35,266 nt of DNA, from positions 1 to 35,266 of IMG/VR virus record IMGVR_UViG_3300032105_000035. One strand, 5' to 3'. The position numbers and the translations under genes were made by a program. Below the pieces are notes generated by a model. That model did not search any database, was not told the origin of the DNA, and saw only the letters and a program-made list of their open reading frames with translations. How positions within the stretch are numbered: the stretch's first letter is position 1; every line of letters begins with the position of its first letter. Of this stretch, positions 52 through 30,272 are shown piece after piece. This DNA comes from a virus.

Positions 52-61
52 TTTTCTTCAC

Positions 62-505: not shown

Positions 506-552
506 CTTCCTTTTCCTCCTACTTCTTGGTCTTCAGATAATTCCCATGACAA

Positions 553-12959: not shown

Positions 12960-15511
12960 CAAAAATCATCCGAATAGAAAGATCCGATACTTTCAAGTTC
13001 ATACCAATTCGGGCCTATTGACGCATCCACTGCAACGGGCACGTTTATAAAACTATACGGTGAAGTAACCATTTCCTTAATTATAAATTCAACATCATCC
13101 TCCAGGGACGATTCAGGCAAGTAGAAATCTAGTTCATCATGGATATATAGTCTTGCTTGATATTGTGAAATACCAGTATCTGTGTAATGTTTGGACAGTC
13201 GGTTCATCGCGTCTATTGCTATATCCGCTGCTGTCCCTTGTATGGGACTGTTGATTATCTTATTACCAGCAAGAGGTCCCCGCCGGCGGCGTCCAGTCAG
13301 ACACTCAACGTACCCATACTCCTCGTACTTATCCAATTCCCTCTCTTGCCAATCCTTGACCCCAGAGAACATATCCCAAAAATCATCAACTACTGGACCA
13401 ATGTTTTGGATTGGAATATTCAAATATCCACTCACTGAATGAGGACTGGCACCAAAGAAAAGCGGGAACACAAACTGGTTCTTTATATCATACCGAAACT
13501 CGGCCATCACTTCTTTGTCTTTAATCATTCTCTTCCCACCGATCCGTCGTGGATACTCATGAGCAACCCGTTCCGTCCATAACTGATGGATATCAACTCG
13601 CTGGTTTAGAAGATCGCAAAGAATCTTATCTTTAGACGCCATCCCAATGACAGACGTTTCCAATTGTTTATAGTCCACCGAGAAAAAGACGAATCCTTTT
13701 GGAGTGTTAAACTGAGACCGGACCTTCCTCCCTTCCGGATCTCGCTTCTCGAAATTCTGCTCGTTTGGAGAATTCGATGACATTCGACCAGTCCGAGCAC
13801 CATTTGGATTAAGTGTTGGATGAAGAAGACCATCTGGCCACAAATACTTTCCACCGTCTTCACTGATGCTGTCGACGTTGGTCGATTTCCGACGGGAGAT
13901 CTTCCGGAACTGCACGATTAGCTGTATCACTGGATGATCAATTTCCTGTATTGTCTCTTCCTTTGTATCCTCTAAATCATGAATCCCCAAGATACTGGAT
14001 AACATTTTATCAACATCAGGAGGAGAACCAGCATTGAACGGATGGAATTTATCCTCAAATTCATGAACAACGTCAAGATCAGCTAAGTCAGCTTCGATCC
14101 CTCTCAACTGCTTCTCCAACTGTTTACCGAGCCGACGGTTCTCATCCTGATCAATACAAACTCCAAACTTTTGCGTCAGTGCCACAGTGGCCGGTCGACG
14201 AACCTGATCTTCGTACGCTTCCAACAACTCTTCATTCTCAAGTATTTTGTCTTGGAGAATAAACAGTTTACACTCGTACTTACTGTCAAGTGCATTATAT
14301 AGAAGCACCGCATCAAGTGGTTCATTCTCCAAATTTGAACGGTCTATTGGAGAAATCGATTTCAACCAAAATCCAAATCGGATCATACAGAGTGTATCTA
14401 AACTAAGCATACCTCTCCGCTCATCAAGAATAAACGCTTGCGCCAATGTACAATCCCATCGTCCAACACGTACAAGCTTATCCCCATAGAAGTATGCTGT
14501 CCATTCCAGTTCGAACGGAAGACTGTGTGCAACCTTACGACACTTTGCCTTCTTGAGGAATCGTAGCCACAACTGATATATCTCCTTCCTTTCTTCGTCG
14601 GTCCACCCCGCCTGTGGATGATCAAATGGGAAGGCGAAAGCCTCAATCTCTGTAGCAACTGCAACCGAGAGGACCTTCGCTCCCGTTCCATATGGCCGCA
14701 ACATGTTGGTCTCATAATCCAGTCCAACTATTGGTTTCTTGGCGAAGTACTCCAATTGCTTCTTGACCTTCCGAAGATCCTTAGATCCATTGGTCCCAAG
14801 AACAGTCTCCACCCCATCGTAGACTCGATCCAAATCTTCGACTTCTGGAGTTGGCAAATCATCGATAATCTCAAGAAGCCAGGCAATGTCCCGCTCATAG
14901 ATTTGCTCTTCATCACTGAACACGACCCGGCCACGGATCTCTTTCCGCCTTCTCAAAAAACCAGCCGGGTGATAGACAGGATAGAACCAACAAACATGGG
15001 ATCCGATCTTAACAGGTACAAAACGTCCTCGCCAAAGAGATATCTTCTCCCCTTTGGTTGCCCACTGAAGTGGAACATTCCCCAAGCCAACAACAACCTT
15101 CGGCTTCGCCTTCTCTATATCTCTGACAACCGATGGACGACAACATTCCTGTTCAAAATAGGTGGGTGCCCTATTTTTATTCGTCTCCCCTAGCTTGGTG
15201 CTTGCTGGTCGTGTCCGAACACAGTTATTGTACCTCAATTTCTTCCGTATTTCCTTTGGGAAAGATCCCCGCAAGAACTTACCAGACCGGCCAACAAAGA
15301 ACTCTCCCTTTTTATCTTCGCCTTCCCCAGGACCTTCTCCAAGTATATAGATATCCGGGTTCTTTGCACCATGCGGTTCTATCTTTGGAGAGTTCACGTC
15401 AGCCTTGTCCAAAGGACAGGCCTTACATTCCATCTTGTGGAGCGTCTCAACAGACGGACGACCCTTTGGCCGAACTTCATCGTCAAGACCTGAAGCGAAG
15501 AAAAGGGTCAC
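12959..15511 (-). CDS. uracil-DNA-glycosylase / 3'-5' exonuclease / family A DNA polymerase fusion
   Basis: 850 residues from GTG 15511. The region before GTG reads from a TTG with no ribosome binding site of its own. GGAAGGAG lies 10 nt before GTG. Residues about 25-220 are a family-4-type uracil-DNA glycosylase: cysteines at 29, 32, 97 and 123/124 for an iron-sulphur cluster, GEGPGEGEDKKGEFF at about 58, and YHPAGFLR. Next is a DnaQ-like exonuclease (GLDYETN near 265, then KVAHSLPFELEW). The polymerase follows with ARTGRMSSNSPNEQN, motif A FSVDYKQLE near 609, the finger motif around NQFVFPLFFG, and motif C IHDELDF near 787. It is the likely replicative polymerase. SPO1-like phages have a comparable N-terminal glycosylase-like domain. 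Confidence 0.92.
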   Translation of the reverse strand: MTLFFASGLDDEVRPKGRPSVETLHKMECKACPLDKADVNSPKIEPHGAKNPDIYILGEGPGEGEDKKGEFFVGRSGKFLRGSFPKEIRKKLRYNNCVRTRPASTKLGETNKNRAPTYFEQECCRPSVVRDIEKAKPKVVVGLGNVPLQWATKGEKISLWRGRFVPVKIGSHVCWFYPVYHPAGFLRRRKEIRGRVVFSDEEQIYERDIAWLLEIIDDLPTPEVEDLDRVYDGVETVLGTNGSKDLRKVKKQLEYFAKKPIVGLDYETNMLRPYGTGAKVLSVAVATEIEAFAFPFDHPQAGWTDEERKEIYQLWLRFLKKAKCRKVAHSLPFELEWTAYFYGDKLVRVGRWDCTLAQAFILDERRGMLSLDTLCMIRFGFWLKSISPIDRSNLENEPLDAVLLYNALDSKYECKLFILQDKILENEELLEAYEDQVRRPATVALTQKFGVCIDQDENRRLGKQLEKQLRGIEADLADLDVVHEFEDKFHPFNAGSPPDVDKMLSSILGIHDLEDTKEETIQEIDHPVIQLIVQFRKISRRKSTNVDSISEDGGKYLWPDGLLHPTLNPNGARTGRMSSNSPNEQNFEKRDPEGRKVRSQFNTPKGFVFFSVDYKQLETSVIGMASKDKILCDLLNQRVDIHQLWTERVAHEYPRRIGGKRMIKDKEVMAEFRYDIKNQFVFPLFFGASPHSVSGYLNIPIQNIGPVVDDFWDMFSGVKDWQERELDKYEEYGYVECLTGRRRRGPLAGNKIINSPIQGTAADIAIDAMNRLSKHYTDTGISQYQARLYIHDELDFYLPESSLEDDVEFIIKEMVTSPYSFINVPVAVDASIGPNWYELESIGSFYSDDF

Positions 15512-15580
15512 CCTCTTAAAACTCCTTCCTAACAATTTTGTTAGTCACCCTCTTAAAACTCCTTCCTAATAATTTTGTTA
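15507..15580 (-). repeat. tandem 37-bp duplication of the polymerase ribosome binding site and start
   Basis: 15507-15543 and 15544-15580 are identical except at one position (c at 15533, t at 15570). On the minus strand each unit contains an inverted repeat (TAACAA/TTGTTA in one copy), GGAAGGAG and a GTG. The downstream GTG (15511) starts the polymerase. The upstream GTG (15548) starts a 10-codon frame. Confidence 0.9.
15516..15548 (-). CDS. possible 10-aa leader peptide before the polymerase
   Basis: GTG 15548 in the upstream copy of the 37-bp duplication has the same GGAAGGAG ribosome binding site as the polymerase. It encodes MTNKIVRKEF and stops with TAA four bases before the polymerase GTG. 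It could be translated and couple or compete with polymerase initiation. No evidence of function beyond this arrangement. Confidence 0.35.
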   Translation of the reverse strand: MTNKIVRKEF

Positions 15581-15586
15581 GAAGGC

Positions 15587-16678
15587 TCAACCCTTTTTAG
15601 AAGTCACAAACGACAAGTAGTTCTTACCTTTGAAGACTACCCAATAACTAGAAATAGCCATAGTCTCTGAGAATGGAAGAGTCTTGGCTACTAATCGCGG
15701 ATCAATCTCCACCTCTTGCTCAGAAATTCTTTTAGCTTCTACAGGATGATCATCCCACATCGATCCGGTGTCACCTTCAACTGACAGCGTGATTCCCTTC
15801 TTATGTCTCACCAAGGAACACGCACTGTTCAGGTTAGAAACAAACAAGCTCGCCTGTTTGACAGACTGGTCAAACCCCTCAGGAATCTCAAAGAACTCGT
15901 CATCATTGGAATATTTTAAAAGAGATTTAATCGTCTTCCGGAATGGAAGAGGCTTAATATGATCCGGTGGAAACTTTCCAAGAAGCTTCTCACCACCAGG
16001 AAACTCCAACAGGACACTGTCATTTCCAATGCTCATCGTTGCTTTCTTTACCTTGAGCGCTTTATACATGTCGATCGCAGTCTTGCACAATTCACGCGTA
16101 AGTATAAGATACTCCGGCAACTTTGACATGGATTTCTTCCCAACATATTTTGGGACCAACAACATTCTGGTAATAGAAACCCGGTTTGTCGAATACAGCG
16201 TCAGGGACTTGTGAAGACGCATCGTCACCCCGTTCTGATTCAATTTTCCACTCTGTGTATCCGAAAATTGCAAGCACTGAACGAGAGCACTGAAGAACTT
16301 GGCACCGATCTGGAGTTTGACAAGGATCTTGATGTCACCAACTTCCTTTGGGAAAACGAAAGGTATTTCTTCCGGACGGAACACAGGAAATTTAAACCGG
16401 CTTCCACCAGATTTCACCACCAATGTATCTCCCTTCAGATCCAACCCTATCGTCTTGGATCTAGCATTCTTTATTGCTCCAAACAGAAGCTCTCCAGGAA
16501 CCGCACCATCTATTGGAACATCACAAGGACTACTTATCGAAACACTGTCGTTGAACGCCCAAACATGTTCCCCATCAAAACAATAGCATGTCAGAATCGG
16601 CAAGGCTTCATAAAATGACTTTGGTGCCACCGCCATTCCGGTCAAACTCAGTGCAGGAAGGAGTTCCTTGACGTCCAT
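15587..16678 (-). CDS. DNA polymerase sliding clamp (beta/DnaN-like)
   Basis: 363 residues, the usual length for a bacterial beta clamp made of three similar domains. Sequence identity to DnaN is low, but several features fit: LPILTCYCFDG and VWAFNDSVSISS near the N-terminus, GELLFGAIKNARS, FPVFRPEEIPF, LTLYSTNRVSITRM, GGEKLLGKFPPDHIKPLPF and the C-terminal MAISSYWVVFKGKNYLSFV. It lies between the clamp loader/polymerase genes and nucleotide metabolism genes. The ring holds the polymerase on DNA. GAGGAA lies upstream of the ATG. A clamp of the bacterial type rather than the shorter T4 gp45 type is inferred from length and order of motifs. Confidence 0.8.
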   Translation of the reverse strand: MDVKELLPALSLTGMAVAPKSFYEALPILTCYCFDGEHVWAFNDSVSISSPCDVPIDGAVPGELLFGAIKNARSKTIGLDLKGDTLVVKSGGSRFKFPVFRPEEIPFVFPKEVGDIKILVKLQIGAKFFSALVQCLQFSDTQSGKLNQNGVTMRLHKSLTLYSTNRVSITRMLLVPKYVGKKSMSKLPEYLILTRELCKTAIDMYKALKVKKATMSIGNDSVLLEFPGGEKLLGKFPPDHIKPLPFRKTIKSLLKYSNDDEFFEIPEGFDQSVKQASLFVSNLNSACSLVRHKKGITLSVEGDTGSMWDDHPVEAKRISEQEVEIDPRLVAKTLPFSETMAISSYWVVFKGKNYLSFVTSKKG

Positions 16679-16691
16679 AAGGATTTATTCC

Positions 16692-17153
16692 TCAGGTTTT
16701 TCGAACTGGTTCATCTAGACCAGGACCAGAAGGGGCTTTTGAACCCCCTACAAGCGTCGCAGACGAGTTTTGAGACGAGGGTATAGGGTTATCCCCTACA
16801 AGCTCCTCTAACCGCTTACAAAGAAGAAAAGCCTCAGCTAGAAGAAGATACCGTCGGAGGTCTGCAACATCATCCAAGACCGTCTCCATCCGGGTGTCGT
16901 TCTCTACCGCTTCAAAAATATCGTATCCACAATCTTCAACCATTGCCTCAATACGATCCCACTTCCTCGCGAACATATGGAACAGCCCCGAACCACCGCG
17001 CCTGAAACATGATCCCTTGTACTGCACATCTTTATCCAGAAGAAGTTCAACATCATTCAAAGCAATCTCCATCAGATGAGCATGATATGGAAATGCATCC
17101 GCACTCGCCGGTTCAAACAGATTTTGTAAATCTCTATTTTTCATCATTGTCAT
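16692..17153 (-). CDS. DUF1599-like (nucleotide-modification-associated) protein
   Basis: 153 residues. The central part has DKDVQYKGSCFRRGGSGLF, then ARKWDRIEAMV, and later DDVADLRRYLLLAEAFLL. This order resembles DUF1599 (nucleotide modification associated domain 1), which has a conserved tyrosine/glycine segment, a K-x-x-R-(L/I) helix and a final D-L-x-x-Y helix. The family occurs beside thymidylate-synthase-like and base-modification genes in phages, and here the HD and thymidylate-synthase-fold genes are immediately upstream. The low-complexity C-terminal tail contains a 48-bp unit flanked by 11-nt direct repeats that carries the element also found at 3506-3529. Assignment by pattern only. 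Confidence 0.5.
   Translation of the reverse strand: MTMMKNRDLQNLFEPASADAFPYHAHLMEIALNDVELLLDKDVQYKGSCFRRGGSGLFHMFARKWDRIEAMVEDCGYDIFEAVENDTRMETVLDDVADLRRYLLLAEAFLLCKRLEELVGDNPIPSSQNSSATLVGGSKAPSGPGLDEPVRKT
16745..16803. repeat. 11-nt direct repeats flanking the second copy of the 24-nt element
   Basis: CCCCTACAAGC occurs at 16745-16755 and 16793-16803. The 37 bases between contain 16767-16790, the exact reverse complement of 3506-3529. This looks like a small insertion with a target duplication or a slipped duplication in the non-conserved tail of the gene. Confidence 0.75.
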
Positions 17154-17155
17154 AT

Positions 17156-17731
17156 CTAAATTTTCTTCAGTTTTTCAAAAAACACATATGGATTGACGCG
17201 TACCATATTGAGTACATCCCTCAATTCTCCTGTCAATAGTTGTTCATGTAGAAGAAGTTCGAGTCCATTATGTATCACGTCGTTAATCTGGGTATTTCCC
17301 ATCAACCGTTGCTCAATAGAGAAGAGAACCCCTTCCAGTCGATCACACATTTTCAACCAGACTTTCTCCTCCGCTGTCAACAATGAATATACAGCACCAA
17401 GACCGAGTCCATCCAAAACAACATGTTCGGCAGTCTTATATGCTTTCTTTAACTTCGGAAACTCATCAAGCATCGAAGCCGGAGGGTCCCCGACGAAACC
17501 CTCGGCGACATCATGAAACAACGCAGCCATAAGAAGATTCTTTGAAGGAGACGGATGAAGAACAAACAACAAGACCACCACGTTCCAACTATGAGACGAA
17601 ACCGTGTTCTCACCAATTATTGACAGTGTATGATACCGTTTGACATTACCACCCTTCCGAAGCAACCGGATCCGTTCGAATACGCTATCCTTGTTCTTCA
17701 TAAGATGGTCCATCGTCCCTGGCCCTCTCAT
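17156..17731 (-). CDS. HD-domain phosphohydrolase, YfbR-like 5'-nucleotidase
   Basis: 191 residues from ATG 17731, chosen because AGGAGG lies 7 nt upstream. It therefore overlaps the thymidylate-synthase-fold gene by 47 nt. Motifs: VKRYHT, ENTVSSHSWNV, ALFHDVAEGFVGDPPASML and MCDRLEGVLF, the spaced histidines and HD pair of the YfbR family. YfbR-type enzymes remove phosphate from deoxynucleoside monophosphates. In a phage this can supply or purge nucleotides, for example feeding an altered thymidine pathway. It lies between two genes linked to thymidylate metabolism. Confidence 0.8.
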   Translation of the reverse strand: MRGPGTMDHLMKNKDSVFERIRLLRKGGNVKRYHTLSIIGENTVSSHSWNVVVLLFVLHPSPSKNLLMAALFHDVAEGFVGDPPASMLDEFPKLKKAYKTAEHVVLDGLGLGAVYSLLTAEEKVWLKMCDRLEGVLFSIEQRLMGNTQINDVIHNGLELLLHEQLLTGELRDVLNMVRVNPYVFFEKLKKI

Positions 17732-18788
17732 ATACAATCCTCCTACGTTCCAACCATTCCAATCCTGCCTTTTGCCAGTCCATCGCATCGCAGTGGCACA
17801 TTCTCTTTTTTGCCAATTGAAATCTATGTGGATTATCCTTGTTTTTCCAAATAGCATGAGCCTGGTGAATTGGCCAAACCACGTTTGAAAAGAACTTTGT
17901 CTTAAAACTTGGTACGGCAGGACTTGGGGACATGAACAAACTCAGATCATCATCAAACATCTTAACACCAGCAGAATCATTTGTTTCTATCAGAGGATAT
18001 GGTCGCACAATTCCAGCTGTATATGGACAAAATGGTCCTCGGCGAAACCCATCCCTTGCACCATCAATGATTGGTCGGCACTTCTCAAACACATCAACAT
18101 ACGCATGAAAGCTACTGCTTATCTGCGTATACGTTCCAACCTCTATACCAACCATCGCAGCGAGGTATTCCTGAAACATGGAGAAGTGAACCGCATTTGT
18201 CCCATACGCACCCCAGATTGCGTCATTTGATCGACAGAAGATCACCATATCAAGTCGATCATCTCGCCGATAAAAATGAGCTACTAAATTACATGGAACA
18301 TCCTTGGATGTGATCCCAAGCTCCGTATCTTCAGTCTCGAAAAGATCCAGTTCACAATCCCAGAACTGCATGACTGCTCTCCTTGTATCAGGATGCTGCC
18401 TCAAGAGTCTGGATAAAACTACGAACTGATCTTGGGTATCCTGGTCGACCAGTGTAAACGTCGCACGCGAGCGGTGGCCATAGGAGGCTCTTAGGGTAAG
18501 CCCATCATCTGAAAACTCGCGCATGCGGCCCAGGTACGGCTCAATCCATGCTAAATCGTTCCGGCCAGCCAACATCCAAATCGATTCAAACAAATGAAAT
18601 GTAGGATTGGCATCCCGTTGTGTGTGAAAAATCACCCGCTCCCTCGGATGGGTAAACACTGTCGCTACTGGATAAGGAACCTCCAAAACATCTCCAGCTC
18701 TTGACGATCTCTTGACTCCATCAATCTCAAGCATTCTCAACCCTTCAGGAAGTGCTTGGTGAACATTACGGACTTTAATTACATGCAT
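17685..18788 (-). CDS. thymidylate synthase / deoxyuridylate hydroxymethylase fold enzyme
   Basis: 367 residues. Recognisable segments are ANPTFHLFESIWMLAGRND, LRASYGHR, SKDVPCNLVAHFYRRDDRL (the cysteine after proline is the expected nucleophile), MVIFCRSNDAIWGAYGTNAV and QISSSFHAYV. The asparagine in GTNAV falls near the position that selects dUMP rather than dCMP in this superfamily. It would methylate or hydroxymethylate dUMP with a folate cofactor. Which of the two cannot be told from sequence alone, but other neighbours suggest modified thymine. GGGAG 6 nt before the ATG supports the start. It is longer than bacterial ThyA (264 residues). Confidence 0.85.
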   Translation of the reverse strand: MHVIKVRNVHQALPEGLRMLEIDGVKRSSRAGDVLEVPYPVATVFTHPRERVIFHTQRDANPTFHLFESIWMLAGRNDLAWIEPYLGRMREFSDDGLTLRASYGHRSRATFTLVDQDTQDQFVVLSRLLRQHPDTRRAVMQFWDCELDLFETEDTELGITSKDVPCNLVAHFYRRDDRLDMVIFCRSNDAIWGAYGTNAVHFSMFQEYLAAMVGIEVGTYTQISSSFHAYVDVFEKCRPIIDGARDGFRRGPFCPYTAGIVRPYPLIETNDSAGVKMFDDDLSLFMSPSPAVPSFKTKFFSNVVWPIHQAHAIWKNKDNPHRFQLAKKRMCHCDAMDWQKAGLEWLERRRIVYERARDDGPSYEEQG

Positions 18789-18840
18789 ATCAATCTCCCT
18801 TTCTCATACCACATAACCCAAGATGTCAATATCAAGCTTC

Positions 18841-18975
18841 CTATATTCCCTTTACCAATTCAAAGACAAAGTCCATCCACCAGAGAACACCTGTAACAGA
18901 AAAGAATATGAGAAAAGTCGTAAACACCACTCTCTGCGCATTATTGATGATCCGCCGCCTCTTAGCCCTCAGCAT
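18841..18975 (-). CDS. 44-aa single-pass membrane protein
   Basis: ATG 18975 has GGTGAGG 4-5 nt upstream and encodes a basic start (MLRAKRRR), then a hydrophobic helix (VVFTTFLIFFSVTGVLWW) and a short tail, ending at 18841. The positive-inside pattern and the ribosome binding site support a real small membrane protein. Function unknown. Confidence 0.6.
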   Translation of the reverse strand: MLRAKRRRIINNAQRVVFTTFLIFFSVTGVLWWMDFVFELVKGI

Positions 18976-19051
18976 AATACCTCACCCCTATAGACCCTAT
19001 ACTGTTTCTTAGGCGTTTCCTCAATATTTATAAATCTATCAACCATTATTG
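18974..19051 (-). CDS. possible 25-aa peptide between two genes
   Basis: An ATG that overlaps the TAA of the upstream glycosyltransferase gene (TAATG) opens a 25-codon frame, MVDRFINIEETPKKQYRVY and six more residues. Its last codons overlap the ATG of the small membrane protein. Tight packing is the only support. There is no strong ribosome binding site, so it could be chance. Confidence 0.3.
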
Positions 19052-19816
19052 ACTGCTTTCAAATGCCTTCTTCCATCCGATGCGGACATCTACTCGCACG
19101 TTATCAAAATCCTTCCATGCGCTCTTTGTCTTCTTTTCCACAACGGTCACAAAGTCTGGGTGAAAATCATGAAGTTCATGAGCACAGCGCTCCATCATTT
19201 CCTTATCACGGTATAACGCACATCCCCCTTCAAATTGTGATCCTCTAGACTGACCCTGAGCAAATTCATAAGAGATACGATTCGGAAACCCCTCACGAAG
19301 CAACTGAAGTGTCATGTCAAAATCTTGCTTGCAATCAATCCTGTCAAATCTCGCCCCAACTTTCAAGACCTTGGGGACATTATACGCAAGCACTCGTTGC
19401 ATACGACCGATGTCTTTGTGTAATGTCTCTACATGATTATTGCCTTCTCTAGAACTGATCCCACAATGAACAAAATCATCCAACCAATCTTCAATAATGG
19501 AAAACATATCGGCAAAATCTTCTGGGGTACAGTAATGAAGGTGCCAATCATTCTTTCCCTTCCGTCTGTAAAAATATAGATCGTCATCCATCATAACGAT
19601 CTTCTCAGATCCTGCATTTTCAAGAATATACTGCCGAGTGGGACTGAGCATTGTGATCTCGGAAGGCAACACCATCAACCGAGGATATTCATATTCATCC
19701 GCCTCCGTCTCTTGAACCACCAACCACGTTTGTTCCAAGACATCTTCTGGAAACCGCGCGATTGTGTACTGTATGTCTATACGACCAACAGTGTGAACGA
19801 ATATTTTCAGACTCAC
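19046..19816 (-). CDS. GT-A-like glycosyltransferase, possibly TET-associated type
   Basis: 256 residues from GTG 19816. The longer frame would begin inside a terminator hairpin and is rejected. It shows YTIARFPED, TWLVVQETEADEY, LPSEITMLSPTRQYIL and then EKIVMMDDDLYFYRR, where DDD is the metal and nucleotide-sugar motif of GT-A enzymes. Downstream segments RMQRVLAYN, GARFDRIDCKQDFDMTLQLL and GQSRGSQFEGGCALYRD fit a sugar transferase. The layout resembles the phage TET-associated glycosyltransferase family, which sugars modified bases in DNA, but I cannot exclude a surface-glycan enzyme. A terminator upstream suggests a separate transcription start. Confidence 0.6.
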   Translation of the reverse strand: MSLKIFVHTVGRIDIQYTIARFPEDVLEQTWLVVQETEADEYEYPRLMVLPSEITMLSPTRQYILENAGSEKIVMMDDDLYFYRRKGKNDWHLHYCTPEDFADMFSIIEDWLDDFVHCGISSREGNNHVETLHKDIGRMQRVLAYNVPKVLKVGARFDRIDCKQDFDMTLQLLREGFPNRISYEFAQGQSRGSQFEGGCALYRDKEMMERCAHELHDFHPDFVTVVEKKTKSAWKDFDNVRVDVRIGWKKAFESSQ

Positions 19817-19828
19817 TCCAAAATCCCA

Positions 19829-19872
19829 ACAAAGAAAAGAAGAAGTGTGGACTTCTATAATCCACACTTCCA
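19829..19872 (-). terminator. intrinsic terminator before the glycosyltransferase
   Basis: Perfect 10-bp arms GAAGTGTGGA and TCCACACTTC (plus 19842-19851 and 19861-19870) with a 9-nt loop, followed on the minus strand by TTCTTTTCTTTG. It lies 17 nt after the stop of the upstream acidic protein. Confidence 0.8.
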
Positions 19873-19890
19873 AGTTTAAGCGGGGGCGTG

Positions 19891-20262
19891 TTATCCTCCC
19901 AAGGATCTTCCTTTTGGATCTGCATCACTCGGTCCGCTTGCGGAATCATCGCCTGGTTCATCTTCAGGCTTATCAGTGTCACCTTCATCTTCAGTTTCGG
20001 GTTCAGCTTCCGATTCTTCACCTTCCGTATCATCCTCTTCCTCTCCGTTTTCGCCACCTTCGTCGGAAGACTCTTCAGAAGCATCATCCGGATCAGTTTC
20101 GGCGTCAGATCCAGCCTCTGCTGCTTCGTCCAACACAACCGCTTCAGCGATCATTTGGTCTTTCGTCATGCTGCTCGTGTTAAGGTTTTCACCATGAGCA
20201 TCGAGCACGTGCTGCTCAATCTCCTCTTTCGTCATGTCTTCGTAATTGACTTTCTCTGACAT
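19891..20262 (-). CDS. acidic protein with an N-terminal LEM/HeH-like motif
   Basis: 123 residues from ATG 20262, with AAGGAG about 6 nt upstream. ATG 20265 is possible. The first 45 residues (VNYEDMTKEEIEQHVLDAHG, then SSMTKDQMIAEAVV) look like a helix-extended-helix unit similar to those at the end of the single-strand-binding protein. The rest is almost only D, E, S, G and P. Highly acidic tails often mimic DNA or bind single-strand-binding proteins, but no specific role can be named. A strong terminator follows it. Confidence 0.65.
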   Translation of the reverse strand: MSEKVNYEDMTKEEIEQHVLDAHGENLNTSSMTKDQMIAEAVVLDEAAEAGSDAETDPDDASEESSDEGGENGEEEDDTEGEESEAEPETEDEGDTDKPEDEPGDDSASGPSDADPKGRSLGG

Positions 20263-20276
20263 CATCGTCTCCTTTT

Positions 20277-21353
20277 CTATTTGGACACTCGTTCTATGCA
20301 TTTCAATATCCTGTCTATTGGCAAGCATAGATTACCAGACAGGTCGCGCTCACAAATAACAAATTGATACGTTTGGTTCAGCAAATTGCTTGTGAAAAAA
20401 TATACTCGATTTGTATAGTCATATGGATGGAATTCTATTACGTGCGCACCCTCCGGAGCAAATATATGATTGGTGATTCCTGCACCATGGATACCCATCA
20501 CAATCTTGGCATCAACAAATAATTCAACCTGATCTTCATGAGGCATCCCAGTCAACACAACATCCTCAAAACCCACCTCTCGTATCTTCCTAATCAGTTC
20601 ATCTTCGTTTGAAGCACTCCGACGGTTCACTTCATCCCGGCGTGAGACATAGATCATCCGTTCCAGTTTCCCAGTCCTAGGAAGGAACCTAGAACGGAGC
20701 CAATCAAGTTGTACTCTGGAATGACCACCGGGTGCCATCATGGATGAGAAAATCAACTTACCAACTCTTAACACTCCGTCATGACTGACTGTACCACGCA
20801 TCGGTACTTTCCAGACCTTCATCAATGTCTCTCCTTGGAAAGAGCGATCCATATTCGACATTATCAACGGCAGGTCTTTGTATTCAGGGAACTCATCCAA
20901 GATCCATAGACGAGGTAAAACTTCCAACAACCAATGGTGATAATTTGAAGAGTGAGGCCCTATAAACATAATCGCAGCGCCTCCGTACTCGCTTTGGTCT
21001 AACGTAGAAATATCGCAATGGATCGTACCGTTCTCCAACGGACCAAATACCGGAGGCACCGGAACAATCGTCTTCATCAATCCCTCGTTATGGTACGAGT
21101 CCAGATAAAAATACTCGTCATCAAAAACTAAGTTTTGTGTCGTTGCTACAGTAGCGTTGGGAATCTCATAAACAAAAGGCACGGCGGCGCGATGATTTAA
21201 CGAATAATGATGTGAAACCAATGAGTCGGTGAAAGCATGCGCATCAGGTTCATCTTCCAAATTTAACGGAGGAAAACAATCTATACATGATTCACCATAT
21301 TTTGAATATTTCAAGAAAAACGAATCAGACATATAACCTACTTTTAGACGCAT
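20277..21353 (-). CDS. GT61 (DUF563) family glycosyltransferase
   Basis: 358 residues. Diagnostic segments of GT61: SSNYHHWLLEVLPRLWIL near 134-151, MIYVSRRDEVNRRSASNEDE near 235-254, and MGIHGAGITNHIFAPEGAHV near 285-304 followed by IEFHPYD. These enzymes transfer a sugar (for example xylose or N-acetylglucosamine) to protein or glycan. The ATG lies directly after the stop of the radical SAM gene. With its neighbours it suggests a glycan or DNA-sugar modification role. The acceptor is unknown. Confidence 0.85.
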   Translation of the reverse strand: MRLKVGYMSDSFFLKYSKYGESCIDCFPPLNLEDEPDAHAFTDSLVSHHYSLNHRAAVPFVYEIPNATVATTQNLVFDDEYFYLDSYHNEGLMKTIVPVPPVFGPLENGTIHCDISTLDQSEYGGAAIMFIGPHSSNYHHWLLEVLPRLWILDEFPEYKDLPLIMSNMDRSFQGETLMKVWKVPMRGTVSHDGVLRVGKLIFSSMMAPGGHSRVQLDWLRSRFLPRTGKLERMIYVSRRDEVNRRSASNEDELIRKIREVGFEDVVLTGMPHEDQVELFVDAKIVMGIHGAGITNHIFAPEGAHVIEFHPYDYTNRVYFFTSNLLNQTYQFVICERDLSGNLCLPIDRILKCIERVSK

Positions 21354-22337
21354 CTAATCTTCCTTTTCCTCACTCTCCCAAGGACGGAGAACTGGCTCTG
21401 TCCAAGGACCACCTTTCATGGCGCGGTGAATTGCTTTCTCGTCTTCAAGATTTGGTTTCCTCAACTTCTTCTGCCCTCTATAGTCTGGGAGCAACCCGAC
21501 ACGGAACGATGTATTGTCACAACCAGCACACTCACCAAAGTCCCGATCCTTGTGATATAGCTTACGACGGGCAGCCATGAACGCAGCATTGTTCCAAAGA
21601 TCGTCAACTGATTCGTAATCCTCAACGTCCCCACACTTATATAAACCACGCCAAGAGTTGCAACACAGAAGAACATTACCATCGAACCGAAAAACCAATT
21701 CTCTAAACGGTCTGGCACATCTCTTGGCCAAGGGTTCCTCAAGTTGTGGTGCTCCAGCACCGCAGTGGTTATTGACGATTTTGTTTCCAAGTCTCGACGC
21801 CTCAATTGCTGCCTTCTCGAAATCTTCAATCAAGATGATACGTTGCACAGACGCTTTGACCTTACTATACGGTGATGGGCCACCAGGATAGTCGGTCACG
21901 GGAACGTCTCTATACTGCCGAACTTGTGCCTCAGTCTTTTTGGATGCTTCATAACAATCCATCGCCAAGATGTTCAGACCACAATGAAATAACCGATCCA
22001 GATTTTTGAAGACACCAGGTTTCCGTAGCAGAGGGATCCCGTTGCTCGTCACCATGATATGTGTATTTGGGAGATCCTTTCGGAAGATTCTGATGATCCT
22101 GGCCGTATCTGGGTTCAGTAAAGGTTCACCTCGCATCGTGAATTCAATCTTGCTGTTCCATCCAGCCTTTGATATTCGTCGAGATATTACTCTCGCCATG
22201 TCTAGACCCATGAACAGGTATGGACCACCTGGCTTTTCACGGATCCCACGAAGACCACACATCTGGCAGTATAGATTGCATCCTTCGGTCAATTCGACCT
22301 TGATTGTGTTTGGACGTTCTTGATGATAGGTTCCCAT
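21354..22337 (-). CDS. radical SAM enzyme with SPASM-like C-terminal cysteines
   Basis: 327 residues from ATG 22337 (AAGGAA 9 nt upstream). LTEGCNLYCQMCGLRG at about 17-32 has the C-x3-C-x2-C iron-sulphur motif of the radical SAM superfamily. EFTMRGEPLLNPD gives the glycine/glutamate step after it, and MVTSNGIPL follows. The C-terminus carries RCARPFRELVFRFDGNVLLC, then CGDVED and GECAGCDN, a SPASM-type auxiliary cluster set. Such enzymes alter peptides, sugars or other small groups by radical chemistry. It lies between the acyl-carrier-like and GT61 genes. The substrate is unknown. Confidence 0.88.
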   Translation of the reverse strand: MGTYHQERPNTIKVELTEGCNLYCQMCGLRGIREKPGGPYLFMGLDMARVISRRISKAGWNSKIEFTMRGEPLLNPDTARIIRIFRKDLPNTHIMVTSNGIPLLRKPGVFKNLDRLFHCGLNILAMDCYEASKKTEAQVRQYRDVPVTDYPGGPSPYSKVKASVQRIILIEDFEKAAIEASRLGNKIVNNHCGAGAPQLEEPLAKRCARPFRELVFRFDGNVLLCCNSWRGLYKCGDVEDYESVDDLWNNAAFMAARRKLYHKDRDFGECAGCDNTSFRVGLLPDYRGQKKLRKPNLEDEKAIHRAMKGGPWTEPVLRPWESEEKED

Positions 22338-22342
22338 CACGT

Positions 22343-22624
22343 TTATTCCTTCTGATCTACTTTAATAACAGGATCCCTACCAACCTGTTTTGAAGCGATC
22401 ACATCGACTAGATCCTTGAACGTTTTCCATTCATCACCAAATTCTTCTTCTGGGATCTCTATATTGAAAACAAGTTCACAATCCATGATAAGCTCTATCA
22501 TATCAAGATCGTCGGCACCAAGATCGTCTTCCATTTCGGAGGTTTCTATAACCATGTGTTCAGGAACACCAAGATGTATAGAAACAATTCGACGAAGTTT
22601 TTCTGTGAGTTCATTCCGCGTCAT
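22343..22624 (-). CDS. acyl-carrier-protein-like protein lacking the pantetheine serine
   Basis: 93 residues from ATG 22624, which overlaps the FkbM stop as ATGA. The fold is clearly that of an acyl carrier protein: RRIVSIHLGVPEHMV, then EMEDDLGADDLDMIELIMDC, then LVFNIEIPEEEF and WKTFKDLVDVI. In a functional carrier the central motif is D-S-L, with the serine bearing 4'-phosphopantetheine. Here the codon is GAC GAT CTT, D-D-L, so the normal attachment is impossible. It may be a scaffold, a regulator, or a mutated carrier. Confidence 0.85.
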   Translation of the reverse strand: MTRNELTEKLRRIVSIHLGVPEHMVIETSEMEDDLGADDLDMIELIMDCELVFNIEIPEEEFGDEWKTFKDLVDVIASKQVGRDPVIKVDQKE

Positions 22625-23319
22625 TGTCGCACCCAAACACCAACGGTATTACGCCACTGTTTTGTAAATCTTGGTTCACGTTCCGTTGAAAATCCCTGAA
22701 TCACCAACGATTTCACAATATCTAAGGAACGCTTTAAAGAATCCTTATTCATCTTGTGAAATTCAATCGACAACTTCTTGGTATCCAAAGGAAGAGACGA
22801 AAGATCACTTTCAAGTAGGAATTCGCTTCCCTCTATATCTATTTTTACGACCGATGGTTTATGCTGGTACAGAAGATCCAGAAAGCCCACTGATGGAACC
22901 GTCCTATAAGGTCGGTTATTCTTCGCAATAAGGCTGTGTCGCCCTTCACTACGCCCACCGGCAACATACAGCTTACACTCTTTACCGCTCCCCCATCCTT
23001 GGACACACGCAGCATAATTTAACGTTGCTGAAAACTCCTTCCCTAAATTTCTTCTGAGCAATCTGAAGTTAGGAAGATATGGTTCTACACAAATGACAGA
23101 CTTGACTCCACATACCAATACCCACTTTGAAAACCCACCAATATGTGCGCCAAGATCCAATACGATGTCATCAGAGTTCAGACCTAACTTTTCATTCTCA
23201 TTTGGTATTGCCTTCACCAGATCCAGATCCGTCGTCTCCGGACGGTGGTAGATATCAAAAGATGGCCGGTTAGGGCACCGAGGCCAACTAACTTTTGATT
23301 TGATGACTTCTACAACCAC
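22621..23319 (-). CDS. FkbM-family SAM-dependent methyltransferase
   Basis: 232 residues, starting at GTG 23319. DIVLDLGAHIGGFSKWVL at about 51-68 is the SAM-binding glycine motif and SVICVEPY at about 74-81 the acidic loop. SVVKIDIEGSEFLL at about 154-167 is the FkbM signature. FkbM proteins O-methylate sugars or polyketides. Its presence in a phage cassette with glycosyltransferases suggests methylation of a sugar group, on DNA or a glycan. The ribosome binding site GGGAGG is rather far (14 nt). Confidence 0.85.
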   Translation of the reverse strand: MVVEVIKSKVSWPRCPNRPSFDIYHRPETTDLDLVKAIPNENEKLGLNSDDIVLDLGAHIGGFSKWVLVCGVKSVICVEPYLPNFRLLRRNLGKEFSATLNYAACVQGWGSGKECKLYVAGGRSEGRHSLIAKNNRPYRTVPSVGFLDLLYQHKPSVVKIDIEGSEFLLESDLSSLPLDTKKLSIEFHKMNKDSLKRSLDIVKSLVIQGFSTEREPRFTKQWRNTVGVWVRQ

Positions 23320-23338
23320 GAGTACGTCTTCATCCTCC

Positions 23339-23464
23339 CTACAAAGCGCAACCGATGTCCAGCCCGACCCCGATGCCTAGACCGAGCAAAACAAATGGCG
23401 TAAGAAAAATAACCGCACCGATTGGCCACGGTGCATCCAAAAACCAGTTTCTTATTTTGTACAT
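23339..23464 (-). CDS. 41-aa membrane protein with its ribosome binding site in a hairpin loop
   Basis: ATG 23464 is preceded by TAGGAGG with 5-nt spacing. It encodes MYKIRNWFLDAPWP, then a hydrophobic segment (IGAVIFLTPFVLLGLGIGVG) and ends in DIGCAL. The start region forms a perfect 16-bp hairpin with the Shine-Dalgarno in the loop and the ATG in the 3' arm. A single-pass membrane protein is the best reading. Function unknown. Confidence 0.65.
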   Translation of the reverse strand: MYKIRNWFLDAPWPIGAVIFLTPFVLLGLGIGVGLDIGCAL

Positions 23465-23492
23465 ATCACCCTCCTAGTGATATGTACAAAAT
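23454..23492 (-). promoter_or_regulatory. 16-bp perfect hairpin presenting a Shine-Dalgarno in its loop
   Basis: Arms ATTTTGTACATATCAC (23454-23469) and GTGATATGTACAAAAT (23477-23492) are perfect reverse complements, and the 7-nt loop on the minus strand is TAGGAGG. The start codon of the 41-aa gene is inside the 3' arm. The structure would strongly control translation or bind a protein. As DNA it is also a near-perfect palindrome. Confidence 0.85.
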
Positions 23493-23569
23493 GACAACGA
23501 TGCCGACGTTAATTCCATTGACTTTTTCTCCGTACCTACACCACTATACGATAAAAACTTACGCTTAAA

Positions 23570-24457
23570 TTACGATGGTGGATAAAATCTTGCTCTCATT
23601 TTTCCTTCTCCTAATCGAACACGTTCATACTTATCATGTTCACAAAGCGAATGTTCGATTTCTCGCATTTCAAGAACAGGAAAATCATCTGGAAGAAACT
23701 TACCACTCAATGAAAGAAGCTTTCGCATTTCATCGATGGCTTGGTCACGTGGTAATGGTTCTCTATCGCGGCGATACCTTCCCTTAATACGACGACCAGC
23801 AACTCTATGAAGGCCACGGATAGCCCCAGGACCTGGATTCGCCCAAGTCATGATGTCCGTTGCGCCTCGGAGATACCGCGTGTGTCTTAAATCCGTCACA
23901 ACCTCATAGGCTATAAACGGACCAAACCCTGGCCGACCACGAAACTGGTTCCACGCTTCTTGTAAGGTCACAACTTGCGTCACCGACGAAAGACCACCTT
24001 GGACAAACGGCGGAGGATCATGGTACAACACATCAAGTATCTTAAAAGCGGTCTGACCAGATTTTGGACCACCAAGAGTTCCAGTCAACATGTATGCTCC
24101 AGTATATGCCTTCTCTCCCCGTTCTCGTCGGTCTTCGATCAACTTCATCAGCCGAGCAGGATCCCACTTCTCTGGAAATCCAAACTCAGCCAACGTGTCG
24201 ATGAAGTTTATCTGTCTGGCAAGAGCCATAGCAAACCAAAGCATTGGATGGTCTGCATAAGGCTCCCGCCAGTTTTCTCGGATCCAGATAGTGGTCCTGT
24301 CCAGTTCACGAAAAACATTGCAGAACCTATACGTTTGGAGTATCTTGTCTTTTGTCCAAGGAAACGGTCTCTTAGTGATGCTCCGACGTAAATAAATAGC
24401 GTGCCGTTCTTTCATCCACCAGAAGAACCGCCTCAGCTGGCTCTTTTTAAACGTCAT
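23570..24457 (-). CDS. 5-hmdU-DNA-kinase-type helical-domain protein (aGPT-Pplase2 family)
   Basis: 295 residues from ATG 24457, with GAGGT just upstream. The protein follows the known pattern of the family closely: RFFWWMKERHAIYLRRS, RPFPWTKDKILQTYRFCNVF, RELDRTTIWIRENWREPYAD, HPMLWFAMALARQINF, GEKAYTGAYML and the C-terminal SLCEHDKYERVRLGEG. In phages with hypermodified thymidine, this helical domain occurs in the 5-hydroxymethyl-deoxyuridine DNA kinase, usually next to a P-loop kinase domain. Here there is no P-loop, so the domain stands alone and the kinase part, if any, would be elsewhere. It supports modified thymine in this phage. Confidence 0.8.
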   Translation of the reverse strand: MTFKKSQLRRFFWWMKERHAIYLRRSITKRPFPWTKDKILQTYRFCNVFRELDRTTIWIRENWREPYADHPMLWFAMALARQINFIDTLAEFGFPEKWDPARLMKLIEDRRERGEKAYTGAYMLTGTLGGPKSGQTAFKILDVLYHDPPPFVQGGLSSVTQVVTLQEAWNQFRGRPGFGPFIAYEVVTDLRHTRYLRGATDIMTWANPGPGAIRGLHRVAGRRIKGRYRRDREPLPRDQAIDEMRKLLSLSGKFLPDDFPVLEMREIEHSLCEHDKYERVRLGEGKMRARFYPPS

Positions 24458-24469
24458 CAAGACCTCAGA

Positions 24470-25138
24470 TCAGGACTTTTTCTTCTTCAGCTCCTCAACG
24501 GAAACATTTCCACGTTTTACGTCCGTCCGGATGTTTCCGCGTCCACCACCAGCCTTGATGTACGCAGACACTTTCATGCCCTCTTTATAGAGAGCGAACT
24601 TCTTGAATGCAGCTGTCCCTGGTCGGCGTGGGTTCTCCTTCACTTTCAAGTGAATGATCGCATCATTGGAGAATTGAGCAGGACGACCAGGCTTGCCAAC
24701 ACTTGTCTTCTTCTCAGCTGACTTTTTGGCCTTGCTGCTCGTCGCCTTCTTCTTGGACTTCTTGGTTGCCACTTTCGTCTCCTTTTCTTCCTCTTCAGGT
24801 TCATCACCTTCTTCATCGTCTTCTTCTTCAGAAGGTTGCTCATCGTCTTCTTCTTCTTCACCCTCTTCCTCTTCCTCTTCCTCATCCTCTTCGGGATCAG
24901 GTTCAAGATCAGACTCGTTAACGTTTTCAAACTCCACAACTTCCTCCTCTTCCTTTACAGCAGCGATGGCTTTGTTCAGCCAATCCGTAACGGGCTCTGG
25001 TAAGTTTTCCCAATCCGAATCAGAGAGTTTGTTCCCCTCAATAGCCAAACGCTCCAGAAAGTGTGTTCTGGACTCTTTCCTTCCCTGCTTAATACCTGTT
25101 GCTTCACAGAGGATGTCTTCTATCTTTTTACTATTCAT
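24470..25138 (-). CDS. acidic-linker protein with a domain shared with the sigma-like protein
   Basis: 222 residues. The N-terminal part (EDILCEATGIKQGRKESRTH, then WENLPEPVTDWLNKAI) is a conserved-looking helical domain. The middle is a run of E/D followed by a lysine-rich stretch. The C-terminal 60 residues (NDAIIHLKVKENPRRPG, KKFALYKEGMKVSAYIKAG, IRTDVKRGNVSVE) match the C-terminal part of the neighbouring 282-aa protein. Probably a DNA-binding or assembly module. Function unknown. The ribosome binding site AGGAGG lies upstream. Confidence 0.7.
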   Translation of the reverse strand: MNSKKIEDILCEATGIKQGRKESRTHFLERLAIEGNKLSDSDWENLPEPVTDWLNKAIAAVKEEEEVVEFENVNESDLEPDPEEDEEEEEEEGEEEEDDEQPSEEEDDEEGDEPEEEEKETKVATKKSKKKATSSKAKKSAEKKTSVGKPGRPAQFSNDAIIHLKVKENPRRPGTAAFKKFALYKEGMKVSAYIKAGGGRGNIRTDVKRGNVSVEELKKKKS

Positions 25139-25188
25139 AGTCGAATCCTTCCTCCTACCAGTCCTATGTCATTATTAATCGTATATAC

Positions 25189-25217
25189 ATTATACACAAA
25201 CGTACGACAACGTTATC
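25189..25217 (-). promoter_or_regulatory. possible promoter before the acidic-linker gene
   Basis: A perfect TATAAT (plus 25189-25194) lies about 50 nt before the gene starting at 25138. Its expected -35 region 17 nt upstream is GATAAC, a poor match to TTGACA. The gap of 77 nt has no gene. Weak candidate. Confidence 0.3.
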
Positions 25218-26064
25218 AGGAACCAACAACTATTCGTAACCGCTGCTTCGTAAATCGCAACAAATCCAAAGCTGTCAATCCTGGTCTCTGTTTTGGGATC
25301 TTAAGAGAAATATTCCCCCGCTTCATATCGGCATGGATGTTTCCGCGAACGGTGCACATACCGCTTTTCTTGCCAGCAGCGATATACTCCACAACCGTCA
25401 TTCCGTCTTCGTACAGCGAATAGCGAACATATGCCTTGGTTCCCTGACGGCGTTGATTACCTTCCTTTAGCATTTGGATTATGGCATCATTTGGGATCCC
25501 ATTGTGTCTTTTCACCTCCAAATCTTTTGGATCTCCCTGGAAAATAATCCGTGCTATGCGATTCTTTCCAAGATACTGTTGCTTGACCGATACCCCTCTT
25601 TTCTTGGCATCGGCTTGAAGGGTCTGTGAAATTAATCCTGACTCCATTGCAGCAATAAACATCTGCATTGGTTTTGGACACTGTCGAATATACGTCCTCA
25701 TCTCACCTTCGTTCGGTAAGGATCCTGGCATCATGTCAAAACAATTTACCTCTTTGCCATCCCGCTCACTGATATTAGAGATCAATAATTCTCGATCCTT
25801 AGACGCTTTCTTAGTGAGATCTGTAAAATGATTTATAAACGCTCTCTTATAGAGCGCCATGAAATGCGCCCCATTTTTGGCACAACCACCCCCATATTTC
25901 TTAGCACAAACAAGAAATATGAGATATGCCTCCTGGAACATATCATCAAAATCCCCCTGACAATGTAATCGCCAGAGGTTCTTTCTTATAAATTTGACAG
26001 ACCAGCCCGATATGGACCTATTAAATTTGGGGACGAATACAAGACGCTCCCGCTTATTTTTCAT
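25216..26064 (-). CDS. sigma-factor-like protein (region 2 type) with an extra C-terminal domain
   Basis: 282 residues. WSVKFIRKNLWRLHCQGDFD, then DMFQEAYLIFLVCAKKYGG and HFMALYKRAFINHFTDLTKK, is the pattern of sigma-70 region 2 (core binding and -10 recognition) as found in phage sigma factors. The middle section (about 95-185) has GLISQTLQADAKKRGVSVK and could be a helix-turn-helix region 4 equivalent. The part after about 200 (NDAIIQMLKEGNQRRQG, VRYSLYEDGMTVVEYIAAG, NIHADMKRGNISLK) is shared with the next gene. It may direct transcription of phage genes. The start codon is weakly supported. Confidence 0.7.
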   Translation of the reverse strand: MKNKRERLVFVPKFNRSISGWSVKFIRKNLWRLHCQGDFDDMFQEAYLIFLVCAKKYGGGCAKNGAHFMALYKRAFINHFTDLTKKASKDRELLISNISERDGKEVNCFDMMPGSLPNEGEMRTYIRQCPKPMQMFIAAMESGLISQTLQADAKKRGVSVKQQYLGKNRIARIIFQGDPKDLEVKRHNGIPNDAIIQMLKEGNQRRQGTKAYVRYSLYEDGMTVVEYIAAGKKSGMCTVRGNIHADMKRGNISLKIPKQRPGLTALDLLRFTKQRLRIVVGS

Positions 26065-26220
26065 TTTGACGCCACCCTGTCACCTCAAAAGAGGAAGGCA
26101 GTCGACTGACCCGGACCCTGGTCGACCAACAGGTTTAAGAGGAGATGATACGCCGAGCCTCGTAACCCTATGACCTTACAATAACCCCATAAGACTAAAT
26201 AATAAAGGGGCTTCTCAATA
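26065..26220 (-). other. 156-nt intergenic region with a weak terminator and palindromes
   Basis: No convincing gene. On the minus strand, just after the primase stop, AAGCCCC and GGGGTT can pair around an A/T loop and are followed by ATTGT, a weak terminator. Two 8-nt palindromes (GGTCGACC, AGTCGACT) lie 12 nt apart near 26100-26130. Possible regulatory site before the sigma-like gene. Confidence 0.4.
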
Positions 26221-27240
26221 TCAATCAAATAACGAAAGCACACTGTTTTTGTTTTGAAAAGTAATTTCACCAGGATCTTCAATACCACTTGGTAGCATGA
26301 TTATCTCAGTTTCAAGAGGAGCTAAAGAAGTCTGGAGTATCATAGCGGTTTCCATAGCCCCACGATCCAGGACAATACACACCCGTTTGAAAAAATCTGA
26401 AAGTTCGTGTATAATCCAAATCTGTTCTTCACTGAACGCAGTGCCAAAAATACAAGTCGCACGGATACCATGCTCAGATAAGAAATAGTCCATATGAATC
26501 GCGTCAAATGGTCCCTCAGTGATGGCTAGAATATCACCTCTTTCCTCAATCAATTCCAACTGACGATATAGACAGTTCTTGATACTCATCGGTGCCCTGG
26601 GATTTGCGGTTTTCTCGTGGCTCACTGACATGTAACGTATCTTTTCCAAATCAGAAATGGTTCGTCCGGTCCAATTGACCAACTGATCCCCCATGAACAC
26701 CGGGATGATTATGCGGTTCTTCCACACACCAGAAAGCACATACCGAAGACCATACTGTTTTCCCAACAATTCAATATCCTTTGGTTTGAAACCACGTCCA
26801 TCACATAGATACCAGATAAACCGCCGAGCCAACCGTTCATGACGAAGCCGACGGAACCCATTTAGAAATCGTAATTCAACACGATCCTTAGAGATAGATT
26901 TTTCCCCATCATCGATATCATCTCCTGGTTCCAATAAGGTTTCTATCTCCTCTAGAAAATCATCAGGAATAAATGCTTGTTCCGAACGAAAGTAATGGTC
27001 AGCCTCCATGTAAGAACAGTTGAGCAACGCCATGATCAACCGATGAGGTCGCCGCCCTCGGTGATCCTTTATCCTCCAACAACCCCAGACTCCAGAAGCG
27101 ATATGAATACCAAGGTGCTGAGATGGATCTGCTGGACCGCACATTGGGCATTTTATATTCACATTTCCCGACGAAACATTCGGACCAGATGTCACGTACG
27201 GAATCTTCTGTTCTATCAAGAACTCAACAAAGTTAAACAT
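26221..27240 (-). CDS. DnaG-type DNA primase
   Basis: 339 residues from ATG 27240. The N-terminal zinc-binding part reads NIKCPMCGPADPSQHLGIH and GVWGCWRIKDH, giving a C-x2-C ... H ... C set. The TOPRIM domain follows: AITEGPFDAIHMDYF (glutamate of motif 1), then VCIVLDRGAMETAM (aspartate of motif 2) and EDPGEI near the C-terminus. The role is synthesis of RNA primers on the lagging strand, with the DnaB-like helicase encoded two genes upstream. It is much shorter than bacterial DnaG and has no C-terminal helicase-binding domain that I can see. Confidence 0.85.
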   Translation of the reverse strand: MFNFVEFLIEQKIPYVTSGPNVSSGNVNIKCPMCGPADPSQHLGIHIASGVWGCWRIKDHRGRRPHRLIMALLNCSYMEADHYFRSEQAFIPDDFLEEIETLLEPGDDIDDGEKSISKDRVELRFLNGFRRLRHERLARRFIWYLCDGRGFKPKDIELLGKQYGLRYVLSGVWKNRIIIPVFMGDQLVNWTGRTISDLEKIRYMSVSHEKTANPRAPMSIKNCLYRQLELIEERGDILAITEGPFDAIHMDYFLSEHGIRATCIFGTAFSEEQIWIIHELSDFFKRVCIVLDRGAMETAMILQTSLAPLETEIIMLPSGIEDPGEITFQNKNSVLSLFD

Positions 27241-27276
27241 CACAACATCCCCGATAAATTTTTAGCTTTTGTTTGA

Positions 27277-30269: not shown

Positions 30270-30272
30270 CTT

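Follow-up and report, generated by a model that had tools for sequence, protein, structure and literature searches.

A phage gene cluster predicted to glycosylate 5-hydroxymethyluracil in DNA, with a TAGT gene where M6-like phages carry a kinase

Introduction

In M6-like phages, the hypermodified thymines known so far derive from phosphorylated 5-hydroxymethyluracil (5hmU). The base J of kinetoplastids arises from thymine within DNA, on which JBP dioxygenases act first and a glucosyltransferase second (PMC4111573). In Pseudomonas phage M6 (Yuavirus), the DNA contains 5-(2-aminoethyl)deoxyuridine, formed via 5-hydroxymethyldeoxyuridine (5hmdU) that is phosphorylated by a DNA kinase (PMC6449724). 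We describe here a gene cluster of IMGVR_UViG_3300032105_000035, a linear viral record of 35,266 bases that is a fragment of a phage genome and was analysed over its whole length (hereafter the window). The cluster holds a predicted deoxyuridine monophosphate (dUMP) hydroxymethylase, a protein of the hel family (HMUDK_hel) and a glycosyltransferase of the TAGT family. We propose, with a probability of about 0.7, that its products hypermodify thymidine, with a sugar rather than a phosphate capping 5hmdU in this pathway.

M6 is the closest characterised relative: its hydroxymethylase (gp058), hel protein (gp055) and HD nucleotidase (gp059) are 46%, 45% and 40% identical to those of the window. 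Both phages have a stand-alone hel, and their core genes are homologous and partly syntenic. However, the M6 kinase (PF18748, gp054), which has its own gene immediately upstream of hel, has no equivalent in the window. Where M6 carries an amino acid:DNA transferase, a pyridoxal phosphate (PLP) enzyme and a radical SAM protein of another kind, the window carries instead a TAGT, an FkbM-type methyltransferase, a SPASM radical SAM protein and a GT61 glycosyltransferase. Only two small genes separate hel from the hydroxymethylase gene in M6, whereas in the window a cassette of TAGT, GT61, radical SAM/SPASM, acyl carrier protein (ACP)-like and FkbM genes, overlooked in the initial annotation of this DNA, lies between them.

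Other systems share parts of this gene set. Bacillus phage SPO1, listed among those in which 5hmU replaces thymine (PMC5977210), has the same dUMP-hydroxymethylase signature and a fusion of uracil-DNA glycosylase (UDG) with polymerase A; a search of its genome for a TAGT was negative. TET phages and T-even-like phages have TAGT systems that share the PF20691 family and its DDD motif with the window. In contrast to these systems, the window has no TET/JBP dioxygenase (as is the case for 47 of 48 TAGT records), its hydroxymethylase appears to be of the uracil and not the cytosine type, and hel is linked. The proposed product, a sugar on 5hmU in DNA, would be of the base J type, although its hydroxymethyl group would arise at the nucleotide level through the hydroxymethylase.

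A proposal of 2013, summarised in PMC4111573, had TAGTs acting on 5hmU produced by JBP-like enzymes. The accessible text of a paper on pelagiphages reports thymidylate synthase, hel (as aG/PT-PPlase1), nucleotidase and putative glucosyltransferase genes as co-located and names thymidine hypermodification (PMC9599517); for this clade II pelagiphage cluster, the same text describes neither a replacement of the kinase by a glycosyltransferase, nor a glycosyl-hmU product, nor a radical SAM/FkbM/GT61 cassette. TET-phage TAGTs and the pelagiphage co-location are therefore already known. A search of the literature outside subscription papers found no statement of a kinase-for-TAGT replacement or of a glycosyl-5hmU product in phages.

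Linkage of the TAGT gene to hel and the hydroxymethylase

Related loci were collected from IMG/VR with a TAGT alignment and with a hel alignment; the two sets overlap and comprise 88 distinct loci after removal of duplicates. The queries were built from this module, and the counts describe this TAGT/hel subfamily and not all TAGTs. Both hel and the hydroxymethylase were present in 73 of the 80 loci found with the TAGT alignment, TAGT and the hydroxymethylase in 76 of the 80 found with the hel alignment, and all three genes together in 77 of the 88 distinct loci. The three genes lay on one strand in 70/70 loci, in the order hel-TAGT-hydroxymethylase in 68 of these 70, with a median span of 2.9 kb. 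A kinase occurred in a single one of the 88 loci, a short fragment from which TAGT is absent. Moreover, a hand-checked set of 32 hel-bearing records contained 14 with a kinase, 9 with a TAGT, none with both and 9 with neither (Fisher p 0.002, treating the records as independent, which is not fully true), and TAGT and kinase co-occurred in none of the sets examined. The same gene set recurs in dozens of uncultured phages and in one cultured phage, the sequenced isolate Brevibacterium phage LuckyBarnes.

The TAGT of the window is a predicted GT-A DNA glycosyltransferase of the PF20691 family. Its DDD (DxD metal) motif is invariant, and its predicted model (predicted local distance difference test, pLDDT, 86) matched the GT-A enzymes TarP and TarS in Foldseek (E 5e-6 to 2e-5). 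Its true start is probably near residue 20. A sequence search of the PDB with the TAGT and hel proteins gave no match.

The hel protein as a partner of two transferases

The simplest reading of hel, drawn from sequence comparison, is that of a DNA-side partner that may be used either by a kinase or by a TAGT, because it is kept with two unrelated transferases and is fused to the kinase in a single frame in Bacillus phage SBSphiC. In the hel tree, the starred branches force at least seven changes of the TAGT label and at least five of the kinase label; L010, with a kinase, is for example sister to L012, with a TAGT. The predicted hel model (pLDDT 90) gave weak fold matches (E 0.15 to 1), first to the 5-PmdU glycinyltransferase gp46 of phage PaMx11 and then to OGG1-type DNA glycosylases, which would agree with a helix-hairpin-helix DNA-binding fold, short of proof. 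Alternatively, hel might itself catalyse a reaction on 5hmU or glycosyl-hmU (aGPT-PPlase or glycosylase-like), and its pairing with kinase or TAGT would then reflect successive steps. We consider this unlikely but worth keeping in mind: gp46 is a catalytic protein, and polar residues of hel are strongly conserved (R51, D54, D190, T194, D202, E274, K277), while the SBSphiC fusion and the retention of hel across two unrelated transferases fit the role of partner, yet are compatible with catalysis.

Distant hel homologues (27-30% identity) were also seen in the haloarchaeal genomes of Haloarchaeobius, Haloferax and Halomarina (L245, L246, L260).

The absent kinase

The initial annotation had taken the missing P-loop half of the kinase as an anomaly that pointed to a variant route, and had called for a search for a separate kinase. 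This search found none in the window, neither by PF18748 nor as a kinase-sized open reading frame (ORF) with an N-terminal Walker A motif. A stand-alone hel, on the other hand, is no anomaly, hel and kinase being separate genes in M6, PaMx11 and others, and we reject that argument. Since a stand-alone hel is the normal state in M6, the real difference from M6 is the lack of a kinase neighbour. A variant route still seems the right conclusion, on different grounds: the window and its relatives lack the kinase and have a TAGT in its place.

PF18748 was insufficient by itself, as the kinases of L005 and L019 escaped it, and the search was therefore extended with a custom profile and with scans for the Walker A motif. 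In the kinase phages (M6, Sonora, PaMx11, Epa43, CN2, RHph_TM26, Koji, L005 and L019), a P-loop protein of 187-211 aa, with its Walker A motif near residue 7-13, is encoded directly upstream of hel or one small gene away (the open frame called in CN2 is longer at its start). No P-loop ORF of this type was seen upstream of hel in the TAGT phages, and a whole-record search with PF18748 was negative in all 48 TAGT records. Neither the complete LuckyBarnes genome, searched by PF18748 and Walker A scan, nor three contigs of 65-80 kb (G003, G016, G018), searched by profile and Walker A scan, contained a candidate kinase. In two IMG/VR records with an M6-like backbone (L014, L022), the TAGT adjoins hel, and the block of amino acid:DNA transferase, PLP, radical SAM and kinase genes was not seen in the available DNA. 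This gene exchange, together with the linkage described above, suggests that the TAGT stands in for the kinase.

An M6-like pathway, in which a kinase encoded elsewhere in the genome would allow thymine to be phosphorylated and aminated as in M6 and the TAGT would be an extra or have another target, seems improbable to us. Room for such a pathway is left by the size of the window, a linear piece of 35 kb, by the closeness of its hel to that of M6 and by the failure of PF18748 to recognise some real kinases. However, the kinase adjoins hel in kinase phages and this slot is occupied in the window by an acidic Lys-rich protein; G016, a close syntenic relative of 79.8 kb, is among the kinase-free contigs; none of the 48 TAGT records searched has a kinase; and M6 gp051 and gp052, the amino acid:DNA transferase (PF18724) and the PLP enzyme, had no significant match in the window.

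One related record (L006, 4791-11285) carries two TAGT genes, the second of which is split into overlapping frames (10453-10827 and 10767-11285) by a frameshift, an assembly error or a split of the gene.

The base addressed by the hydroxymethylase

In the thymidylate-synthase family, Asn at site 177 goes with uracil and Asp with cytosine. The window enzyme was aligned with E. coli ThyA, T4 gp42 (a dCMP hydroxymethylase) and SPO1 gp29 (a dUMP hydroxymethylase). It retains C146, R166, D169, N177, H207 and Y209, has lost W80 and shows the changes H147N and L172W, N147 and W172 being found also in SPO1 and M6. The sequence marks of the SPO1 gp29 type are present (Cys146 nucleophile, Asn177, loss of Trp80 and the RSND..WG motif), and C146, N147, W172 and N177 occur in 86/86 distinct hydroxymethylases of the related loci. 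The dCMP hydroxymethylases of T4 (gp42) and of Klebsiella phage pKp20 have another motif at 177 (RNDYAW; ND/Y pattern). Among solved structures, the nearest in sequence belongs to a CMP hydroxymethylase and not to a thymidylate synthase. Because N177 and the loss of W80 match SPO1, unlike T4 gp42 and pKp20, there is a strong inference that the product is a dUMP hydroxymethylase making 5hmdUMP.

That the enzyme is instead directed to cytosine, or is a plain thymidylate synthase, so that the base would be a glycosyl-hydroxymethylcytosine (glycosyl-hmC) of T-even style or nothing at all, is in our view very improbable. The T-even TAGT does act on glucosyl-hmC (PMC13216743, PMC13390438) and the LuckyBarnes enzyme was named a dCMP hydroxymethylase in the original report (PMC6588365), but the dCMP enzymes differ at the site where Asn177 and the SPO1 signature are kept in every distinct relative, and the loss of W80 with H147N disfavours an ordinary thymidylate synthase. 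A TET/JBP enzyme (PF12851) was also considered as the source of the hydroxymethyl group and rejected: none was found in the window and just 1 of the 48 TAGT records has one.

The thymidylate-synthase-fold enzyme, the YfbR-like nucleotidase and the hel-domain protein named in the initial annotation were all recovered by profile searches (Table 1). Its suggestion of hypermodified thymine likewise has good support as an inference, from the dUMP-hydroxymethylase signature and the M6-homologous, partly syntenic core, and not from the missing kinase half. Its assignment of the 16692-17153 product to DUF1599 was not upheld, as neither this protein nor five homologues had a significant Pfam match.

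Proposed pathway

In the pathway that we propose, the thymidylate-synthase-fold enzyme would convert dUMP to 5hmdUMP. The HD nucleotidase might then shift the balance of the pool against dTMP, and 5hmdUTP, formed by kinases of the host or the phage, would be inserted for T by the polymerase. After replication, hel would recognise or present hmU in DNA to its partner, be it kinase or TAGT, and the TAGT would glycosylate the hydroxymethyl group with a nucleotide sugar as donor; the resulting glycosyl-5hmU would resemble base J. A TET route to the hydroxymethyl group is disfavoured because of the rarity of TET/JBP genes in TAGT records. FkbM, radical SAM/SPASM and GT61 might, more speculatively, tailor or extend the sugar. 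The DNA would thereby be masked from restriction and other DNA-targeting defence.

Several points weigh against glycosyl-5hmU in the DNA of this phage. The hel protein is not strictly required everywhere, as ctUhy936 has a TAGT and a hydroxymethylase without it; conversely, L011, L013 and L016 have hel and the hydroxymethylase with neither kinase nor TAGT. A kinase may conceivably lie elsewhere in the genome of which the window is a fragment, and PF18748 overlooks divergent kinases, though the search did not depend on that profile by itself. Finally, the acceptor could be an already modified base, given that the T-even TAGT that has been characterised works on glucosyl-hmC, to which it attaches a second glucose (PMC13216743). 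Glucosylation of 5hmU in DNA has a precedent in the T4 beta-glucosyltransferase, which can perform it, but only on single strands or hmU:G pairs (PMC4111573).

If true, a widespread replacement of the kinase by a glycosyltransferase would mean that phages also make a base-J-like, sugar-coated thymine, that the hel family is a general reader of hmU in DNA rather than part of one kinase, and that an uncharacterised DNA base is predicted in a cultured, sequenced phage, LuckyBarnes. The module might also be a source of enzymes that tag 5hmU in DNA, where such reagents are limited. Many of the phages bearing it may be marine, judging from the published pelagiphage parallel.

The tailoring cassette

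Homologues of the radical SAM/SPASM protein were found beside or near the TAGT in L006, L020, L057, L060, L061, L071 and L084, in some cases between hel and TAGT, and FkbM homologues adjoin hel or TAGT in L006, L020, L057, L082 and L090. The TAGTs accompanied by a radical SAM gene, that of the window included, fall mostly within one supported TAGT subgroup, which suggests, speculatively, a linked function such as sugar editing together with methylation. GT61 and the ACP-like gene were seen, among the relatives examined, solely in the window phage and its second assembly (described below). Possible roles are a second sugar step for GT61, tailoring of the sugar or of the base for the radical SAM/SPASM protein, and O-methylation of the sugar for FkbM. 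The ACP-like protein is incapable of normal carrier function because Asp replaces the phosphopantetheine-bearing Ser (GADDLD), identically in the second assembly.

These enzymes and the TAGT could instead act on a protein, a cell-surface glycan or a small molecule and leave plain 5hmdU in the DNA, since glycans or other substrates are common targets of the GT61 and FkbM families and sugar genes are frequent phage cargo, but this is hardly probable with a TAGT, which belongs to a family of DNA glycosyltransferases from phages and is tied in order and strand to hel and the hydroxymethylase.

A broader proposal, which we put forward tentatively and hold to be somewhat less probable than its opposite, is that uncultured phages harbour a kinase-free branch of hypermodification that glycosylates 5hmU, that hel is an interchangeable hmU-reading subunit docking either kinase or glycosyltransferase, and that in the lineage of the window the sugar is further edited by radical SAM/SPASM and FkbM to yield an undescribed base.

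Gene content of the window

Table 1. Named genes of the window, all on the minus strand, in order of transcription
Product	Position	Strand	Evidence or remark
Acidic Lys-rich protein	24470-25138	-	Upstream neighbour of hel, where kinase phages have the kinase
hel (HMUDK_hel / aGPT-PPlase1)	23570-24460	-	PF18723 E 5.5e-49, 167 bits (cut-off 25)
FkbM-type methyltransferase	22621-23319	-	PF05050 E 2e-5; TIGR01444 E 8e-13
ACP-like protein	22343-22636	-	PF00550 E 7e-7; phosphopantetheine Ser absent
Radical SAM/SPASM protein	21354-22340	-	PF04055 E 3e-9; PF13186 E 2e-8; CNLYCQMC motif
GT61 glycosyltransferase	20277-21353	-	PF04577 E 3e-24
Small acidic ORF	19891-20328	-	Between GT61 and TAGT
Predicted TAGT-family GT-A DNA glycosyltransferase	19046-19873	-	PF20691 E 7e-17; phrog_842 E 4e-42
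Predicted dUMP hydroxymethylase (thymidylate-synthase fold)	17685-18788	-	PF00303 E 4.5e-13; phrog_5131 E 4.8e-107
HD/YfbR-like 5'-deoxynucleotidase	17156-17731	-	PF12917 E 1.4e-7; open frame could begin at 17857
Small conserved module protein	16692-17153	-	Homologue in 70/80 TAGT loci
Distant beta-clamp-like protein	15587-16678	-	Under the Pfam cut-off
DNA polymerase A with N-terminal UDG-superfamily domain	12959-15535	-	PF00476 E 5e-58; PF03167 E 1e-17

The UDG-polymerase A fusion also occurs in SPO1 gp31 and in the relatives L006, L009 and L020, and is lacking in M6, L014 and LuckyBarnes. Megablast of the window against the phage collection returned no direct relatives, Rfam and tRNA scans of the window gave no matches, and the number of sites in promoter and terminator scans was close to that obtained with shuffled sequence. 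A second assembly (L223), a contig of 35,935 bases from a metagenome-assembled genome binned as Patescibacteria, matches the window at 99.98% identity across 12.9 kb (17573-30460), differs around window positions 56-563 and adds about 2 kb beyond the window; no kinase was found in this extension. A second contig binned to the candidate phyla radiation (CPR), L238, has the arrangement hel-FkbM-TAGT-hydroxymethylase. The Patescibacteria/CPR binning of these two contigs is a weak hint at the host.

The proteins encoded at 24470-25138 and 25216-26064 have a common C-terminal segment (GT.A..+..LY..GM.V..YI.AG), and one or both have homologues near hel in L006, L014, L020, L021 and L022. Loci with hel and the hydroxymethylase and with neither kinase nor TAGT were L011, L013 and L015-L018; among the neighbours, L011 has a weak match to GT-B glycosyltransferases and an FkbM homologue, L013 and L016 have other methyltransferases, and L018 has an FkbM homologue, all possibly further partner types. 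In L224, L225, L227 and L241, hel, the hydroxymethylase and a gene of the 16692 type lie on large alphaproteobacterial contigs (0.2-2.7 Mb, e.g. Hyphomicrobium) with no kinase or TAGT within 6 kb, and these loci would represent a prophage or a chromosomal island.

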